A stretch of DNA of 21,969 nucleotides from a virus. Within the stretch, counting starts at the first letter, position 1; every line of letters begins with the position of its first letter. The notes beneath the pieces are model-generated. The model did no database searches. It was given only the letters and a program-made list of their open reading frames with translations, and was not told where the DNA came from. The DNA is taken from the IMG/VR virus record IMGVR_UViG_3300027608_000178, positions 1-21,969 of that record. One strand, given 5' to 3'. A program made the translations under genes and the position numbers. Shown here piece after piece: positions 8,532-18,046 of the stretch.

Positions 8532-8861
8532 TTAGAGACCGTTTGCCGACCTACGACGAATTGCTCTCAGAGCACCATTCTCGGAATTGCGAAGAATAAT
8601 GACATGCTTTCCATTCCTTCTTGCATATTCATGAATCTGTTTATGATTCTCATTATTCATATCCAAATACCGTGACCACCGTTCGAATTTCACGCGACCT
8701 GTTTCAAATTTCTTAAAGACTTCGGGTTCCACATCAAATGCGCGATAGCGTCTCGTCAGTTTTGCCGATGTGGGTGGCATGGCCATGGTTGCACTGTCAC
8801 CCGTTACATTCGCGGGAGTTGCTCCTGCATCTTCTGCGAGACTTTCTAGGAATGATTTCAT
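8532..8861 (-). CDS. Small basic protein with capsid-targeting-like N-terminus
   Basis: A 109-residue protein starting MKSFLESLAE/DAG. The first ten residues resemble the T4 capsid-targeting sequence of internal proteins (MKTYQEFIAE) and end in Leu-Ala-Glu, a match to the T4 prohead protease rule (L/I)-x-E. After residue 30 it is basic, with many Arg (LTRRYRAFD, AIRRRSANGL), as expected of a protein packed with DNA. The middle has no family I recognise. It overlaps the stop of the 196-residue gene (ATGA). It is the last gene of the long minus-strand run and precedes tandem hairpins. Confidence 0.75.
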   Translation of the reverse strand: MKSFLESLAEDAGATPANVTGDSATMAMPPTSAKLTRRYRAFDVEPEVFKKFETGRVKFERWSRYLDMNNENHKQIHEYARRNGKHVIILRNSENGALRAIRRRSANGL

Positions 8862-9448
8862 CGTGTGATATCCTCGGTGGAAATGTAAATATGTTGATTT
8901 GTGGATTCGTGTCGAACTTTAAAAATTGGAGTGCCTAGAAATTTACCTGATGGGATGACTGCCTCCGTCACTTTAATTTTGCTACCTTTATGAGCAAGAA
9001 ATTCAGCGGTATGAATTAGTGCGGTATCGCGACACAGAGTATAACGGCCCGGCTGAAGTTCTCCATTCTTCGTGAGAAACCATGTGTTTTCATTTAAAAC
9101 CATGTCAACCTCAACATCCTCGAGCCGCTCAAAGATTTTCTGAAGTCCTTTTTCCGACATTCCAGTTTCTTCCTTGATGAGATAGAGTGCCGCGGCATAA
9201 GAGGCAATTCGAGTACGTCCCAATGGAAGCTTATTCAATAGCTTCTTAATATTGAACACCAATCGGTGAAACATTGTGTAGGATGACTTTTCATCCGATG
9301 TTTTGAGTTCCGAAGCCTTCTTTAAAATATTACCGTTTTTGTCCACGATGCCATACTTAAAGGCATCCATCTTTTCCCATGGAGTCACTAAGATTTTTAA
9401 GAATCGAAAGGTATAATAGAGATCCGCCGTCCTTGAAATGATGCTCAT
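8858..9448 (-). CDS. Conserved phage protein, unknown function (196 aa)
   Basis: A 196-residue protein beginning MSIISRTADLYYTFRFLKIL, then TPWEKMDAFKYGIVDKNG, KTSDEKSSYTMFHRLVFNIK and LASYAAAL-type helices, which I recall as a conserved set in T4-like marine phages. The N-terminal half looks helical with a mixed basic surface; the C-terminal part (130-196) is likely beta-rich, with phrases such as GRYTLCRDTAL and GTPIFKVRHES. No catalytic motif or signal peptide is visible. It is coupled on both sides by ATGA overlaps (9445-9448 and 8858-8861), which ties it to the late block and suggests a virion or head role. Confidence 0.78.
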   Translation of the reverse strand: MSIISRTADLYYTFRFLKILVTPWEKMDAFKYGIVDKNGNILKKASELKTSDEKSSYTMFHRLVFNIKKLLNKLPLGRTRIASYAAALYLIKEETGMSEKGLQKIFERLEDVEVDMVLNENTWFLTKNGELQPGRYTLCRDTALIHTAEFLAHKGSKIKVTEAVIPSGKFLGTPIFKVRHESTNQHIYISTEDITR

Positions 9449-9828: not shown

Positions 9829-10254
9829 TTAGCAGTTCCATTTCCTAAGAGCCAGAGCCTTTCGACTGGGTTTTCCATTGGGCTTCTTCATTGGCCCTTT
9901 CACGCCCGACATACGTGCGCAGAATGACTTGCGTCGATTTGCAGCCTTGCTGCCTTTCTTTAATTTAGAAGGCGCCGTTGTCACCGGAGCTTTGAGATTA
10001 CCGCCCGTCTTGCGATTATAATGATCCCGACCTTTCTGAGTTAAACCCCCCGTGGAGCTTTTGTGGCCCTTGGCATCAATTGCAGCCTCGAGAAGTTCAT
10101 AATCGTCTACGGATTCAAAATCTTCCCAGATCACATCAGAGTCTACGCCATTCTTTTCGGCAATAGTCTCGACCATTTCTTCGATAATATCAAACTGCGA
10201 TTCGAGCAGAGCGGTCTCTTCAAGAAATTGACGATATACCGAAAATGGATTCAT
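9829..10254 (-). CDS. Basic conserved phage protein (DUF6321-like C-terminus)
   Basis: A 141-residue protein with an acidic helical first half (to about residue 60) and a strongly basic second half. The latter has GGLTQKGRDHYNRKTGGN, LKAP, RRKSFCARMSGVKG and a terminal LRKWNC, which I recall as a short conserved module in many phages (catalogued, I believe, as DUF6321). The module looks nucleic-acid binding. The N-terminus MNPFSVYRQFLEE contains Phe-Leu-Glu-Glu, a weak match to a prohead-protease site. The start lies four bases after the stop of the 130-residue gene. Confidence 0.78.
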   Translation of the reverse strand: MNPFSVYRQFLEETALLESQFDIIEEMVETIAEKNGVDSDVIWEDFESVDDYELLEAAIDAKGHKSSTGGLTQKGRDHYNRKTGGNLKAPVTTAPSKLKKGSKAANRRKSFCARMSGVKGPMKKPNGKPSRKALALRKWNC

Positions 10255-10671: not shown

Positions 10672-11244
10672 TTATTCCGAGTGAATTACTTTATTCGGTG
10701 CTCCGTGGCCAATGCGATCGCCTTGAAATAATTCAACGCGATGAGGTCCTTTTGCATATTCTTTTGCTTTTTTTAGTATATTAGAATGCGATCCCCGTAT
10801 GACAGTTCTGTTATTCATTCCAACCTCAGCGTATGATCCATCGGAATTTTTACGACTTACAATTGCTGTCATGCCCTCATTTGTCATTACCGAATTCCTA
10901 AGTGTTGCGTCAAAAGGACGAGCATGGGCTTTTGGAAAGTGATGCGTGTGCATATCCATGTGAGCCTTTTCACCTTCGCGAGTGCCGACATGTCCCATTG
11001 CGAGATCGTGTAAAGCCGCGGCATGTTTATGCCATTCTGGAGTATTATGATGATTTGCTAATTTTGAAGCAGCATGTGCAGCCCCTGAAAGAGCCTGACT
11101 ATGAGCACGTACATCAGCCTGATGACTGTCGATTCCAGCCTGCCGAGGGTCAATCATAGCACCCGCTTCGGTCACTGTCTCATTCATCCCAATATAGGAT
11201 GAAGAGATTGATTTAGTAAGGTTTGTGCTCTTTGGGTTCTTCAT
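10672..11244 (-). CDS. His-rich hypothetical protein (190 aa)
   Basis: I count 18 His in 190 residues (about 9%), concentrated between 40 and 110 in Ala/His helices such as LHDLAMGHVG and HMDMHTHHFPKAHARP. The N-terminus has SSSYIGMNETVTEAG, close to the SYI/TYI-x-ML-N-E pattern in the 302- and 407-residue proteins. The C-terminal region (125-185) looks like a small beta-rich domain. It starts five bases after the stop of the 302-residue gene, with no ribosome binding site. Metal binding, or charge matching to packaged DNA, is possible. No enzyme motif is seen. Confidence 0.7.
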   Translation of the reverse strand: MKNPKSTNLTKSISSSYIGMNETVTEAGAMIDPRQAGIDSHQADVRAHSQALSGAAHAASKLANHHNTPEWHKHAAALHDLAMGHVGTREGEKAHMDMHTHHFPKAHARPFDATLRNSVMTNEGMTAIVSRKNSDGSYAEVGMNNRTVIRGSHSNILKKAKEYAKGPHRVELFQGDRIGHGAPNKVIHSE

Positions 11245-11249
11245 TTAAA

Positions 11250-12158
11250 TTATTTTAATTTAACGGGGGCATCAACAATAGCAACCTTTGGAAGAGCTTC
11301 AGATGAATTGTCAGGTGCTGGTTTTTTAGCAGAATCGAGTTTATCCGCGCCGTCTTGCGCAGCAGTTGGAAGCAGGTCAACAATTTCTGTTTCATCATCA
11401 GCGTCATCTTTCATCTTCTGTGTTGCAGGATCCATGACTTCTGGACCCGCTTCTGCATCGGCAGGAGCGCCTTCAGTCATCTTTACATATGCTGCGGCAA
11501 GAGAGGCCATAACCTGTTCACCCGTCATTTTTGGCTTCTCATCTTCGTCCTTCTCATCTTCATCTTCGTTGTCTGCATCATTATCACTTTCGCCACCCAT
11601 GTCATCTGCATCGGGTTCTGCATGATCCGCATCTTTCTCGTCGGAATCTTCTTCTTTTTCTTCGCCGCGGAGTTTCTTGAGGTCGTCTCCATCAACCTTA
11701 CCGTTTTTGTTTAAATCCAGTTTGTGCTGATTGCCAGAAAGTTCTTCTTCTACTTCGGCATCGTCGAGCTTGGGCATTTCGTCAGCCTTTACTTCCTTCT
11801 CGTCGTGATTGTCCGCCTTGATCTCTTCTGAATCTTCTTCTTTGACTTCGGCAGGAACTTCATCTGAAGCCTGTTTTGGTGCATCTTCTGTACCAACGTC
11901 CTGAATCTTCTTGGCCAGACCTTGATCTTCTTCTGAGGCATCTTCCTTGATGCTCTTGATGCCGTACTTCTTGCCATTGAATTCAACAACGGACGTACCT
12001 GCCGCACGGGCTTCAGTCACAGCCTGAACGAATGCAGTTACATTCTCTTCAGTAATTGCGGTGGGTACCCATTTTGGACGAGCAACTGATGCTGCGGCTT
12101 TGGGCTTGAGCATTGCGAGGTATGATTCTGCGACTGACTGAAGTGATTTTAGGTTCAT
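11250..12158 (-). CDS. Very acidic protein with one EF-hand loop
   Basis: A 302-residue protein with three parts. Residues 1-20 (MNLKSLQSVAESYLAMLKPK) closely match the N-terminus of the 407-residue ligase-like protein. A short ordered part lies at 30-70. Most of the rest is Asp/Glu-rich low-complexity sequence (105-210) interrupted by an EF-hand type calcium loop, D148-L-N-K-N-G-K-V-D-G-D-D159, with every key ligand present. A second copy of the N-terminal pattern may be QVMASLAAAYVKMTE (215-229). It is preceded by an exact TATAAATA. It could be an internal head protein or scaffold; no hydrophobic core for an enzyme is visible. Confidence 0.75.
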   Translation of the reverse strand: MNLKSLQSVAESYLAMLKPKAAASVARPKWVPTAITEENVTAFVQAVTEARAAGTSVVEFNGKKYGIKSIKEDASEEDQGLAKKIQDVGTEDAPKQASDEVPAEVKEEDSEEIKADNHDEKEVKADEMPKLDDAEVEEELSGNQHKLDLNKNGKVDGDDLKKLRGEEKEEDSDEKDADHAEPDADDMGGESDNDADNEDEDEKDEDEKPKMTGEQVMASLAAAYVKMTEGAPADAEAGPEVMDPATQKMKDDADDETEIVDLLPTAAQDGADKLDSAKKPAPDNSSEALPKVAIVDAPVKLK

Positions 12159-12853: not shown

Positions 12854-14410
12854 TTATTTACGAATGACCGAGGAGCGAACCTTTGCAAATACGCTAGTGT
12901 CTCCAGTTACAATTGAGATCATGCTATGTAATAGCTCGAAGAGAGCCATTTTCTCAGCAATGTTGTTAATTGGCATTTGAGTATCGAGCTTCTTGATTGC
13001 ACGAGAAATAATGGGAAGACGTTGCCGATCAAGGAGGCCGAGACGAATCAGAGCCTGGAGACGAGCCAATGATTTCTTTTCCTCATCGGACATTCCTGCG
13101 GTTTCTTCACCATCTTCAGTTTCCTCTGCAATGACCGATTCATCCACCGGAGTATCCTTGTCAGCAGCATCGTACTTTTCATCCTGAAGATCCTCACCAT
13201 ATTCAACATAGGAATGAACGTCATCCAATTCGTTATATGCAGTTGTGATCTTGTTCTGAATCCAGGCCTCGAGTTCATCCTCGTCATCCATGGCCGCGGC
13301 GAGGTCTTTTGCCATGTCCACTACCTTGAGGAGCTGACTCTTTGCCATTGAGACTTCTTCTGAACCGTCTGTTTCTTTTGTGGCTTCTGTTACTTCGACC
13401 GATTCATTCTTTAACTTTGAAACAATTGCAAGATGGAATTGCTGAGCCTGTTTATCTCCACGTCTTTCCGCGGCAACTGCTTCCTGAGAATGCTTCGTGA
13501 TCTTTGCATTCTTCTCTAAATCAATCGCCTCGGCAATTTCAACAGCCTCGTTCATGTGCTTCTTGATAAGACGGTGAGCCATGAACTTATGCATGGTTGC
13601 CTGTTTATCGTGCTGCTTGACCATTGTCTCATGAGGAGTTAGATCTGCCGCGGGAGCCTTGTTACGAATGAGTTTGTCTATTTTTCGAGAATGTGAATTG
13701 GAAGCCTTCTCATGAGAATTTGCAGCCTTGATATGAGTGGAAATGGAAGGATTGCCCTTGGCTGCCTGAGAGTGCATTGCGGCGGTACCGCTATGCTGTT
13801 TATATCCACTCGCCTCATTTAAATCGGTGCCACTCGGGAGATCGACTGATTCTTTTGGTACACAGTTCGGAACTTGTTTGCCATTTTTGTTTTTCATTCC
13901 AATCGCCTCATAACCTTTCCAGCAAGCATCTTTCAGCTCCTCGCCAATTTTAACCACGGGCTTCTTTGCATTCTCTGCATCTTGTTTCTTGGCAACTTCG
14001 TACTTAGCATCCATATGTTTATGGAACGCGTCATTGTCGCCGGCTTTCTTTGCGGCCTGAGCTGCGGCATGATGCTTTGCCATATCTTCCTCTGTACCTT
14101 CTGTAAATGTTGCTGCTTTTTCTGCATGCTTGACCGCCATGTCAAGATGGTAGTTATGAGCGCGACCTTTAAAGAAACCCTGAGCATTTTTATGTGCTGC
14201 CATCGCCTTCAGATGATTTTCCTTCGAAGGATCGCGAGTTGCAGCTGCTGAAGCTTTTGCAGCTAGAACTGACTCGTGTCCAGGAGTCTCTGTCATCTCT
14301 TGTCCCGGAGTTGCATTCTTGTACTTGTTCGTTAACTCTGCGGTACCGAATTCTCCTGCGCCATGTTCTTCAGCAAGTGAAGCTGAACGAATTTGTTTCA
14401 GATTTTTCAT
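12854..14410 (-). CDS. Large internal-type protein with several prohead-protease-like sites
   Basis: A 518-residue Ala/Lys/His-rich helical protein. Candidate (L/I)-x-E cut sites follow residues 14 (SLAE), 199 (DLNE/A), 294 (EIAE/A), 429 (VIAE) and 486 (NIAE). A compact Cys module, from CWKGYEAIG at 163 to VPNCVP ending 185, is a short conserved phage motif that I recall without a function. Residues 203-285 hold repeated His-containing helices. The C-terminal segment 440-518 (ARLQALIRLGLLD, then IVTGDTSVFAKVRSS) is another module that recurs in T4-like marine phages. It overlaps the next ATG (14407-14410). The pattern is consistent with a polyprotein or internal head protein. Confidence 0.75.
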   Translation of the reverse strand: MKNLKQIRSASLAEEHGAGEFGTAELTNKYKNATPGQEMTETPGHESVLAAKASAAATRDPSKENHLKAMAAHKNAQGFFKGRAHNYHLDMAVKHAEKAATFTEGTEEDMAKHHAAAQAAKKAGDNDAFHKHMDAKYEVAKKQDAENAKKPVVKIGEELKDACWKGYEAIGMKNKNGKQVPNCVPKESVDLPSGTDLNEASGYKQHSGTAAMHSQAAKGNPSISTHIKAANSHEKASNSHSRKIDKLIRNKAPAADLTPHETMVKQHDKQATMHKFMAHRLIKKHMNEAVEIAEAIDLEKNAKITKHSQEAVAAERRGDKQAQQFHLAIVSKLKNESVEVTEATKETDGSEEVSMAKSQLLKVVDMAKDLAAAMDDEDELEAWIQNKITTAYNELDDVHSYVEYGEDLQDEKYDAADKDTPVDESVIAEETEDGEETAGMSDEEKKSLARLQALIRLGLLDRQRLPIISRAIKKLDTQMPINNIAEKMALFELLHSMISIVTGDTSVFAKVRSSVIRK

Positions 14411-15333
14411 GCGATTCTATTTTTACGGATTAAGCTAATTGGTGTTCCCTGAAGAGAAGGTGTGTGCACCTTAATCTCGGGAGATGATGTTAAAATGACT
14501 GGAAGTAATTGACTTTCAAGAGTGATCTCTTTCTTTTCAAGGAGTTCAACCGCGGATAGCCATTTACGAACTTTCTTTCCATCATTGAGTTCAACGATGA
14601 GGTAATTGGATCCACAGTGAGTAATCTTGCCGAGTTCCTCGGATTCTTTGATGACTACCTCATTGCCAACTTCAAATAAGTCTCCGGAGACGTATGCCTC
14701 TCTGCGATCGCTCACGGATTCAAGTTGAATATGTTTACGGAAGTTGCGAGACTCTTTGAGACCCATGCCATTTCGCACGGCATTAAAGAGTTCTTCGTGA
14801 TCCTGGAAAGAGGAAGGGAGATTTTTTGCAAACGCCTCAAGATCATTCGACTTTGCAGCAGTATGCATTGCCGATTCGGATAGTTGCAGCGAGGAATTCT
14901 CAGACCCAATGACTTTGACGCCTTCCTTAAAATTGTAAAAGCCGTCATTTGTTTGAACGCCGTTGTGGCCATTGAGCAGTGCCTCAAATTCAAGGACGCG
15001 GGAACTCTCCGTCATCATTGTCACGCGGGTAAATCCTTGTTCGTATAATTTCGAACATATTGAGAACACCGTGTTCACATCATCGCTCATTACATTTCGC
15101 GCATATTTCGGAAACACCTTGCGCATCCATTTTACCTTCTCTTCTAGCTTTAGCGGGTTCTTTTTGGCGTCTTCAAAGTGAGAACTGTAAATTCGATAGG
15201 CTGAACCTGCTGCAATTTCTGCGACTTGTTCAAGCAGCTTTTCGTGGGCTATTGTTGGAGGATTGAATCGCTCAAATACGAATACAACATCCTTGGGCGT
15301 TAGATCACTTACAAATTGTGTAAAAGATTTCAT
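14407..15333 (-). CDS. Degenerate cytidylyltransferase-like protein with C-terminal SH3/KOW-like domain
   Basis: A 308-residue protein. Residues 15-195 align in outline with the intact 205-residue enzyme at 17429-18046: the same MKSFTQF start, KKNPLK (58-63), and GMGLK near 189. But the key sites are changed: ERFNPPTIAH (21-30) replaces GRxNPxTxGH, and LSESAMH (151-157) replaces ISASKMR, so the nucleotide-binding Gly and the Arg are lost. It is probably inactive or altered in specificity. Residues 218-268 (EVGNEVVIKE, LGKITHCGSN, LIVELNDGKKV) look like a small beta-barrel of SH3 or KOW type. The N-terminus has no (L/I)-x-E site. Confidence 0.75.
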   Translation of the reverse strand: MKSFTQFVSDLTPKDVVFVFERFNPPTIAHEKLLEQVAEIAAGSAYRIYSSHFEDAKKNPLKLEEKVKWMRKVFPKYARNVMSDDVNTVFSICSKLYEQGFTRVTMMTESSRVLEFEALLNGHNGVQTNDGFYNFKEGVKVIGSENSSLQLSESAMHTAAKSNDLEAFAKNLPSSFQDHEELFNAVRNGMGLKESRNFRKHIQLESVSDRREAYVSGDLFEVGNEVVIKESEELGKITHCGSNYLIVELNDGKKVRKWLSAVELLEKKEITLESQLLPVILTSSPEIKVHTPSLQGTPISLIRKNRIA

Positions 15334-15336
15334 TAA

Positions 15337-15696
15337 TTAACCAGTCTGTACATTATGCTCAGCGCCACCGGGTCCGATATCCGCAATACGATAGCCAACT
15401 GGCTTCGTAACTGAAACTTTGACCATGGGTTTCTTTTTTAGACGAGCCTTGATTTTCGACAATGTCTGAGGATCCTTTGCTTCATCCATTGGCTCCGGCT
15501 TTGCCTTTGCGGCCTCAGCCTCTTTTACATCATCAGTCACTCTTAGCTGTGGGTGCCGTGACTGCTTAAAGTTTGCCCGAATCTTCTCGGTGCCTTCTTC
15601 TGCAAGTGACTTCTTGCGCTTATACGCATAGAAATCTTGCATTTCTGTTTCCCCACCAGCATACTGGACTGTACTGAAATCTTTAAAACTATACAT
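15337..15696 (-). CDS. Hypothetical late protein (119 aa)
   Basis: A 119-residue protein, the first gene of the minus-strand late block, after a TATAAATA box and a leader hairpin. It starts MYSFKDFSTVQYAGG. SLAE/EGTEK (35-38) and PMDE/AKD are possible prohead-protease sites. The middle is Lys/Glu/Ala-rich and probably unfolded. The C-terminal piece, PVGYRIADIGPGGAEHNVQTG, is a short conserved-looking module that I believe recurs at the ends of other phage proteins. No enzymatic motif is seen. The position suggests a virion or head-associated role. Confidence 0.7.
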   Translation of the reverse strand: MYSFKDFSTVQYAGGETEMQDFYAYKRKKSLAEEGTEKIRANFKQSRHPQLRVTDDVKEAEAAKAKPEPMDEAKDPQTLSKIKARLKKKPMVKVSVTKPVGYRIADIGPGGAEHNVQTG

Positions 15697-16208: not shown

Positions 16209-17432
16209 ATGTTTGAATTATCCTCGCTTCAATCTGTTGCTGAAACTTATATTGAGATGCTCAATGAAGCTGCGGCACCTCAGAGGCTCTTGCATATTCT
16301 GCATCCTGAAGATCGGCCATTGATGCACGGTTCTTCTGGATTTGAACATGCTCACGGTGCACTCATGCGTGCTCATGAGCATATGAAGGCGAAGAAGCAT
16401 TCATCCGATCTTACAATGAAGTATGACGGTTCTCCCGCCATTGTATTTGGACATCATCCCGTCACAAAGAAGTTCTTTGTTGCAACGAAGTCTGCATTCA
16501 ATAAGACTCCTAAATTGGCACATAGCAATGCAGAGGTGGACAAACATTATGGTCATGCTCCGGGCCTTGCGAGTAAGCTCAAGACTGCATTAAAGCATCT
16601 TCCAAAGGTGACACCAAAGGCTGGAGTCTACCAGGGTGATCTCATGCACACTCGGAGCGATCATAAGTTACATGAGGCAGTTTCCTTTACTCCAAACACA
16701 ATTACCTATACGGCACGCGGAGATGAAGAAAAGAAAGTAAAACAGTCGCATATTGGAGTCGTAGTGCATCAGCAATATCATCCGCATCCTTCAAAGCCCG
16801 GCGTTGAACATATGTCTGTGAGCCCGCATCCCGACACTCATAATTTTAAACAGCATCCTGATGTTCATCTCAAGACGGCTGAGCATGATACGAGCAAGGT
16901 GGATTATTCCGCAAATGATCAAGGAGCCTTTCATAAACACATGACCGCGGCAAAGGCAATTCATGACAGGCATGGTTCCAAAATGTATGCTGCCACTGCA
17001 CGGCATGGCGGAGAGGCGGGACATCTTTCAAGTTACATCAATGCCACGGTACGGAGTGGTTCAAAACCAAGTGCATCAGGATTCTCAAAACATCTGAGTG
17101 CTCATTTTGCAAAGTCTGCCAGCAAGGTAAAGACTCCTGCTGCAGTGGCCAAACATCGTGCAACCGGAGCCGAACATGTTGCCCACGTAGCAAAGCATAC
17201 TGGACATTATGACAATCTATTGGCAATGCATGGCCACCTTGCCGCGGCAAAGAATACTCTTGTGAAGAACCTTGAAAAACACGAGGGTGGTCTTGAGCAT
17301 CACATTAATGGAGCAAAATCAAAGCCAGAAGGCTTTGTGATTAACCATAAATTTAAAGGACAGTCGCATCCGACCAAACTTGTGAATCGCGCAGAATTTG
17401 CAAAGGCCAACTTTGCCAAAGTAAGAACATGA
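16209..17432 (+). CDS. Ligase/nucleotidyltransferase-like protein, His-rich
   Basis: A 407-residue protein with motifs reminiscent of covalent nucleotidyltransferases (DNA/RNA ligases, capping enzymes). They are KYDG at 71-74, with Lys71 as the likely AMP-accepting residue, YQGDLM (141-146), IGVVVHQQY (182-190), EGFVI (374-378) as motif IV, and TKLVNR (389-394) as motif V. I recall similar proteins as DUF6267, which needs checking. The N-terminus (FELSSLQSVAETYIEMLNE/A) ends in Leu-Asn-Glu before Ala21, a prohead-protease type site. I count 47 His (about 11.5%). It is the first gene of a late plus-strand operon and overlaps the next by ATGA. The substrate is unknown. Confidence 0.75.
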   Translation: MFELSSLQSVAETYIEMLNEAAAPQRLLHILHPEDRPLMHGSSGFEHAHGALMRAHEHMKAKKHSSDLTMKYDGSPAIVFGHHPVTKKFFVATKSAFNKTPKLAHSNAEVDKHYGHAPGLASKLKTALKHLPKVTPKAGVYQGDLMHTRSDHKLHEAVSFTPNTITYTARGDEEKKVKQSHIGVVVHQQYHPHPSKPGVEHMSVSPHPDTHNFKQHPDVHLKTAEHDTSKVDYSANDQGAFHKHMTAAKAIHDRHGSKMYAATARHGGEAGHLSSYINATVRSGSKPSASGFSKHLSAHFAKSASKVKTPAAVAKHRATGAEHVAHVAKHTGHYDNLLAMHGHLAAAKNTLVKNLEKHEGGLEHHINGAKSKPEGFVINHKFKGQSHPTKLVNRAEFAKANFAKVRT

Positions 17433-18046
17433 AATCTTTTACACAATTCATTAAAGAAGCCGCAGTAAATTCGCATCACGTATTGGCATTTGGCCGCATG
17501 AATCCGATAACTTCGGGTCATCAGAATGTAATCAATGCTGTGCACAAAGTTGCGAGTGAGCATAAGGCGGGTCATACCGTGGTGGTATCGCATTCTCACG
17601 ATCCTAAGAAGAACCCCCTTAAAAGTGCTCAGAAAGTCACTCATGCAAAGAATGCATTTCCCGGCACCAATATCAAAGCATCAAGTAAAGCAAAGCCTTC
17701 AATTCTTCATCATGCCGCAGATCTCCATGCAAAGGGTGTGGAGCATCTCCACGTGATTGCGGGTTCCGATCGTGCTGGCGAGATGCACACATTGCTTCAT
17801 AAGTATAATGGCAAACCATCCTCCGCTGGACATGCTGGCTATAATTTTAAATCGATCACGGTACACTCTGCTGGAGAACGCGATCCTGATGCGGAAGGCA
17901 CAAAGGGTATTTCAGCAAGTAAGATGAGAGCACATGCTGCGTCTGGTAATAAGAAAGCCTTTCACAAAGGCGCACCTTCATCCATGTCTGTTGCTCATAA
18001 GGACGCCATGTATCATGATGTCCGTAAGGGTATGGGAATTCAATAA
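17429..18046 (+). CDS. Cytidylyltransferase-like nucleotidyltransferase, capsid-targeting-like N-terminus
   Basis: A 205-residue protein of the HxGH nucleotidyltransferase superfamily (NMN adenylyltransferase, cytidylyltransferase). The nucleotide-binding site is GRMNPITSGH (22-31, with Thr for the first His, as in many phage members) and the second motif is ISASKMR (161-167). The first residues, MKSFTQFIKE/AA, match the T4 capsid-targeting sequence in length and end in Ile-Lys-Glu, a prohead-protease-type site. I count 22 His (about 11%). It is coupled to the ligase-like gene by ATGA and overlaps the converging next gene by seven bases. A paralogue with damaged motifs lies at 14407-15333. 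The substrate is unknown. Confidence 0.82.
   Translation: MKSFTQFIKEAAVNSHHVLAFGRMNPITSGHQNVINAVHKVASEHKAGHTVVVSHSHDPKKNPLKSAQKVTHAKNAFPGTNIKASSKAKPSILHHAADLHAKGVEHLHVIAGSDRAGEMHTLLHKYNGKPSSAGHAGYNFKSITVHSAGERDPDAEGTKGISASKMRAHAASGNKKAFHKGAPSSMSVAHKDAMYHDVRKGMGIQ

Follow-up and report, generated by a model that had tools for sequence, protein, structure and literature searches.

The internal proteins of phage T4 consist of variable cargo carried behind a fixed tag. The T4 prohead protease gp21 cleaves after L/I-x-E, and the propeptide of IPIII is processed through residues 8 and 10, with an Asp at residue 10 (P1) blocking cutting but not targeting (PMC9026906). Modular proteins have been found in virions elsewhere: S-CREM2 particles contain the modular proteins gp160 and gp137 together with the cytidylyltransferase gp154 (PMC10665884), and Sullivan et al. 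listed a putative cytidylyltransferase (T4-GC190) among virion proteins (PMC3037559). In Synechococcus phage S-SZBM1, the 457-aa protein _139 has the same cysteine unit as the protein described below and adjoins the cytidylyltransferase _140 and _141, which we read as a DUF6267-like protein; _139 was recovered from CsCl-purified particles (4 peptides, 10.5% coverage, score 2382), and _140 was likewise detected in virions (PMC9146016).

Here, we describe a gene from a stretch of 21,969 bases of an uncultivated phage (hereafter, the window). It encodes a cassette-built protein of a T4-like lineage that has virion-borne counterparts and exchanges cassettes at joins bearing hydrophobic-x-E motifs. 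The reading that we favour, to which we give an even chance, is that this is a CTS-targeted internal cassette protein, packaged in the head and cut by the S77 protease at E14 and probably at some internal joins.

Gene, relatives and cassette organization

The gene encodes 518 residues (56,994 Da, 57.0 kDa) on the minus strand, the plus strand of 12854-14410 being crowded with stops; an earlier sequence-only reading had given no strand, and the open frame that it reported is confirmed. The start of the frame lies in the final codons of a cytidylyltransferase gene (14407-15333, minus strand). No near DNA match to the window was present among 50,697 phage records, and the protein matched nothing in Pfam and only families of unknown function in PHROGs. 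At the protein level, 232 phage records matched, the best of them over the region of the two-cysteine unit. A 140-kb relative, G002, is syntenic with the window and carries the remaining T4-like genome, including a gp23-type capsid protein, a scaffold, an S77 prohead protease and a portal.

Several other genes of the window are also of note. The gene at 9829-10254 (minus) matches Pfam DUF6321, the unit with which the cyanophage T4-GC119 proteins encoded between gp16 and gp17 also end. In G003, the counterpart of 11250-12158 (minus) ends in a fusion to the C-terminal unit (SMTAIVSRKNSDGSYAEVGM...) of the 190-aa protein of 10672-11244 (minus), which makes a single 631-aa protein (L038) with a tandemly duplicated EF-hand-like DLNKNGKVDGDDL unit. 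The G002 version (86883-87458) of the 119-aa protein of 15337-15696 (minus) has an extra cassette of about 70 aa, flanked by V-D-E and L-A-E.

Comparison of six homologues shows that the N-terminal half of the 518-residue protein is a row of cassettes of 25-100 aa that are gained, lost and reordered between phages (Table 1). The cassette region was readable, whole or in part, in the viral-contig orthologues L001/L002 (near-identical), L003, L004/L005, L006, L205 and L207, L211 being a C-terminal fragment only. All complete orthologues retain the MKxhKQhR...LxE start and the C-terminal half; between these stand three to seven cassettes in differing sets, drawn from GAGE(F/L)GTAELTNKYKNATPGQ, SKKKSSDMARVNAG.., a KVGDKVKIVGG unit, NFKVTFAHEH.., EDMAKHH.. 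and the two-cysteine unit; L205 also has a CxxC unit that resembles DnaJ, with a Pfam E of only 0.036. The cysteine unit precedes EDMAKHH in L001 and follows it in the window, and I-G-E157, exactly where the order changes, is a true point of rearrangement. In a distant phage (L021), units of like kind are arranged differently. The segments named by the sequence-only reading, i.e. the His/Ala helices, the Cys unit (CWKGYEAIGMKNKNGKQVPNCVPKE), the acidic linker and the helical module at the C-terminus, are all present, and the module shuffling that it had sought between its proposed sites was found among the homologues.

Table 1. Cassette map of the 518-residue protein, in window coordinates.
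Feature	Coordinates	Strand	Remarks
Whole cassette-built gene	12854-14410	-	Start overlaps stop of upstream cytidylyltransferase by 4 bases
Residues 1-14, MKNLKQIRSASLAE, capsid-targeting-like propeptide, predicted cut after E14	14369-14410	-	MKxhKQhR..xLxE kept in all complete orthologues; insertion point directly after
Residues 15-37, cassette GAGEFGTAELTNKYKNATPGQ	14300-14368	-	Other distance from N-terminus in L001, L003, L207; missing in L004, L205
Residues 38-103, His/Ala helical cassette, M-T-E at 41	14102-14299	-	Different cassette instead in L001/L003
Residues 104-157, EDMAKHH..IGE helical cassette, ending I-G-E157	13940-14101	-	Rearrangement point; after Cys unit in L001, before it here
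Residues 158-190, two-cysteine unit CW..Y..G.K.K.G..VPNCVPKE	13841-13939	-	At least 557 confirmed stretches in viral contigs
Residues 191-199, linker ending D-L-N-E199	13814-13840	-	S-L-D-E in L003/L004/L205/L207; coil in model
Residues 200-294, helical cassette ending E-I-A-E294	13529-13813	-	pLDDT about 70-77 over 210-270, <50 at 292-294
Residues 295-342, helical cassette ending E-V-T-E342	13385-13528	-	Orthologue comparison, AlphaFold2 model
Residues 345-404, WVQSKIT helical hairpin	13199-13378	-	AlphaFold2 pLDDT 93.8; at least 359 confirmed stretches in viral contigs
Residues 405-439, acidic linker with V-D-E424, I-A-E429	13094-13198	-	pLDDT mostly <45, coil from 418
Residues 440-518, lineage-specific C-terminal helical domain, IAE486 and LFE492 inside helices	12857-13093	-	Only 9 loci in viral contigs

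Two of the cassettes are widespread in viral contigs, the counts in Table 1 being confirmed among 600 pattern matches listed for each (557 for the two-cysteine unit, 359 for the WVQSKIT hairpin), and neither matches a Pfam family. A portal-like protein (L020, L023, L024) of apparently different phages also carries an insertion of the two-cysteine unit, which is thus not restricted to internal head proteins. Full-length AlphaFold2 modelling (four orthologues) was weak (mean pLDDT 46.6), with moderate-confidence helical segments at about 108-143, 210-290 and 300-335. The hairpin modelled alone from 36 sequences reached a pLDDT of 93.8, and a fold search with it against the PDB returned no match.

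Mosaicism of this kind might also be expected of a recombination hot-spot gene with a non-virion product, the shared join residues resulting from recombination at conserved linkers, and several cassettes are indeed present in proteins other than CTS proteins (the Cys unit in portal-like L020, for example). However, the junction codons vary (CTT GCT GAA, ATT GGC GAG, TTA AAT GAG, GTA ACA GAA), which counts against plain DNA microhomology, and the syntenic counterpart and its adjacent cytidylyltransferase are detected in purified virions. We consider this explanation very unlikely.

Hydrophobic-x-E motifs at cassette joins

The sequence-only reading proposed a polyprotein with up to five prohead-protease sites of the (L/I)-x-E type. 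All five are present, ending exactly at residues 14, 199, 294, 429 and 486; two further [LI]xE sites, at 157 and 492, were omitted from that reading, and allowing V and M adds 41 (M-T-E), 342 and 424 (both V-x-E). The number of sites is not significant (7 [LI]xE vs 5.4 +/- 2.1 expected from 20,000 shuffles, P=0.29), and support from number alone was dropped. The placement of the sites at segment boundaries held in part: modules are separated at 199 and 294, a disordered linker holds 429, which distant orthologues do not keep (A-T-E or V-N-E there), and 486 falls within the predicted helical domain at the C-terminus, being lost in the diverged L003, L004 and L207 (TTTAEK) and retained as IAE in L205. 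A position inside a predicted ordered domain had been named beforehand as counting against a site, and 486 is given up for that reason; as junctions, both 486 and 492 are rejected, since they lie inside this domain and IAE486 is lost in 3/4 distant orthologues. In the low-confidence full-length model, sites 14, 199, 342, 424 and 429 fall outside the confidently ordered segments, as does 294, in a dip between two helical segments; a low-confidence helix begins at 157, and the C-terminal helices contain 486 and 492. The polyprotein proposal is borne out in part.

Sites at module boundaries exceed chance. Ungapped similarity break points between six full-length orthologues gave 67 distinct join contexts, and [LIVM]xE lay within 4 residues of 31 of these vs 12.9 expected (P~5e-7, the joins not being fully independent); for [LI]xE alone, the count was 14 vs 6.6 (P=0.005). 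[LIVM]xD, [LIVM]xK, polar-xE, charged-xE and AxE were all flat at the same joins. Because break points share ancestry, which makes P values optimistic, this contrast between motifs is the sounder evidence; the E-vs-D contrast is also the one seen in T4 IPIII processing. V/M-x-E joins are as frequent as L/I-x-E joins, a looser motif than that published for T4 gp21. Two neighbouring mosaic genes had 26 motifs within 6 residues of joins vs 12.5 expected, with charged-xE weakly raised too.

The signal extends to a wider set of 339 mosaic proteins from viral contigs (2,179 break points), in which the [LIVM]xE ratio at joins was 1.41 (bootstrap 1.35-1.48), 2.42 at the exact join and 1.72 for the motif followed by A, S or G, with flat controls ([LIVM]xD 0.99, polar-xE 1.07). 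The enrichment is moderate, with a motif within 8 residues in about 44% of joins vs 31% expected, and is equally strong in proteins lacking a CTS-like N-terminus. The linker patterns taken by the sequence-only reading for repeated junctions hold up here as well: [NDK]E[SAG][VI] is 1.71-fold enriched near joins (CI 1.36-2.06), the K version standing at 1.02. A first control set, the other proteins of the same contigs, was also enriched (1.43) and was stratified because it was full of further cassette-class proteins and one recurrent family. Low-charge non-CTS controls from the same contigs, mostly tail/fibre-like or portal proteins, then gave 0.94 (0.53-1.41), a small control (117 joins) defined after the first control result was seen, vs 1.45 (1.25-1.66) for mosaic proteins whose charge is as low. 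The recurrent family (MSIISRTADLYYTFRFLKILVTPWEK...), present at 8858-9448 (minus) and in many contigs, has a conserved N-terminal part and a variable remainder; its break points show the motif too, with D also enriched.

These controls bear on another explanation, in which a CTS-targeted internal head protein is cut once, after E14, and the other motifs belong to flexible acidic linkers between joined bead-like domains. T4 Alt and the IP proteins lose just their N-terminal propeptide (PMC9026906), the N-terminal site alone clearly resembles known processed sites, and join enrichment extends to proteins that have no CTS. However, the linkers are more than acidic, as [LIVM]xD, polar-xE and charged-xE are unenriched at the orthologue joins, and the low-charge control proteins lack the signal. 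We consider a single cut possible but less likely than cutting at E14 and some internal joins.

Proposed propeptide, processing and packaging

Residues 1-14 (MKNLKQIRSASLAE/E, the slash marking the predicted cut) resemble the T4 capsid-targeting propeptide; site 14 is well supported as a predicted propeptide site of the capsid-targeting type, and the 14 residues are likely removed. The N-termini of neighbouring genes are also targeting-peptide-like (MKSFLESLAE/D, MNLKSLQSVAE/S, MKSFTQFIKE/A), and in the G002 cluster that matches the window [LIVM]xE occurs at residues 8-24 of 11/18 genes vs 33/124 elsewhere (P=0.005, controls flat); for [LI]xE alone, this comparison is not significant (P=0.13). 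Two cytidylyltransferase/NMNAT-like genes, at 14407-15333 (minus) and 17429-18046 (plus), have T4-IP-like N-termini (MKSFTQF...), and their products may be enzymes packaged for ejection into the host, because the cultured counterparts are virion proteins.

The window of 22 kb contains no S77 protease gene, and a gp21-type S77 protease is present in the closest relatives G001 and G002. The major capsid protein of G002 carries SLHE/ATPVNS at the expected gp23 processing position, where it would be cut. Of 50 large records that carry modules, the same 12 contain both gp23 and S77. Within +/-6 residues, join enrichment is similar in large records without S77 and gp23; at the exact join, records with S77 had 19 motifs vs 5.8 expected and those without had 8 vs 5.5, small numbers that are suggestive only.

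We envisage that the propeptide draws the protein into the prohead core and that the S77 prohead protease likely removes it after E14. The same protease would probably cut some internal joins too, because these bear the same hydrophobic-x-E signature: predicted cuts at 157, 199, 294 and 342 are plausible, and those at 41, 424 and 429 are less sure. Freed cassettes would become separate head peptides, ejected with the DNA or lost, each with a presumptive task of its own. Because a cut-site of its own would close every cassette, gain, loss and reordering of cassettes could leave the rest unharmed. A broader version, in which such proteins are widespread aquatic-phage polyproteins whose cassettes are releasable virion peptides lying between prohead-protease sites, brought in on a single targeting tag, cut up within the head and then ejected into the host, seems to us rather unlikely.

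Between the portal and S77 protease genes, G002 encodes three small His/Ala-rich proteins (128702-129544, L035), two of them with targeting-like starts (MNFFDTARQLQE, MQNLINSVLSVIAE); these are candidate gp67/gp68-like core proteins. Homology of the 518-residue protein to them was rejected (BLAST E >2), the likeness being compositional only. A prohead core or scaffold-like protein, fully degraded by the protease as are T4 gp22, gp67 and gp68 and leaving little in the virion, would have such a His/Ala-rich composition and would account for the low virion coverage of the counterparts (10.5%, 4.1% and 13.1%), whose peptides fit an intact or a cut chain alike and come from cultured phages. However, a likeness in composition alone, the location of the gene far from the head genes and the high virion score of S-SZBM1_139 (2382) make this quite unlikely.

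Comparison with known systems

T4 IPI, IPII, IPIII and Alt are like the window protein in having a short N-terminal stretch that ends in hydrophobic-x-E, a phage lineage with a gp21-type protease and variable cargo behind a conserved tag; whereas their cargo is one domain released by one cut, the window protein has many exchangeable cassettes, each with a possible site. Beyond this pattern, Pfam and PHROGs gave no sequence homology to IPI-III or Alt, and the protein may be said to work like them rather than to be their homologue. T4 gp22, gp67 and gp68 share multiple L/I-x-E sites and a helical, highly charged character, but the window gene lies outside the head cluster, showed no sequence homology to them and has counterparts that persist in mature virions. 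The ejection proteins of phiKZ and SPN3US (e.g. gp53), with multiply cut propeptides, are alike in having several protease motifs per head protein; in SPN3US, however, the motif is A-x-E and the cuts fall within one long propeptide, cassette exchange not being described in the portions of that literature available to us.

The cyanophage T4-GC119/phrog_727 proteins and S-SZBM1_139 have the Cys unit in common with the window protein, and in some of them this extends to the WVQSKIT hairpin, DUF6321 or other cassettes; they are detected in virions, and S-SZBM1_139 has the same gene neighbourhood as the window protein. They differ in their cassette sets and are hypothetical by annotation, with processing not described in the accessible parts of the sources. 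Shuffling of protein fragments between phages was described by Smug et al. 2023 (PMC10684548) for replication proteins, tail fibres, spikes and endolysins; the available part of that paper includes no prohead or internal proteins and no protease motif at joins. The window protein varies at the level of cassettes of 25-100 aa within one chain, with a maturation-protease motif at the joins. If the cutting is true, it would explain how many large phages exchange whole sets of small peptides that act on the host or bind DNA, and how they deliver them. It would also provide a rule for spotting cargo cassettes, such as the WVQSKIT hairpin and the CW..PNCVP unit, among 'hypothetical' virion proteins.
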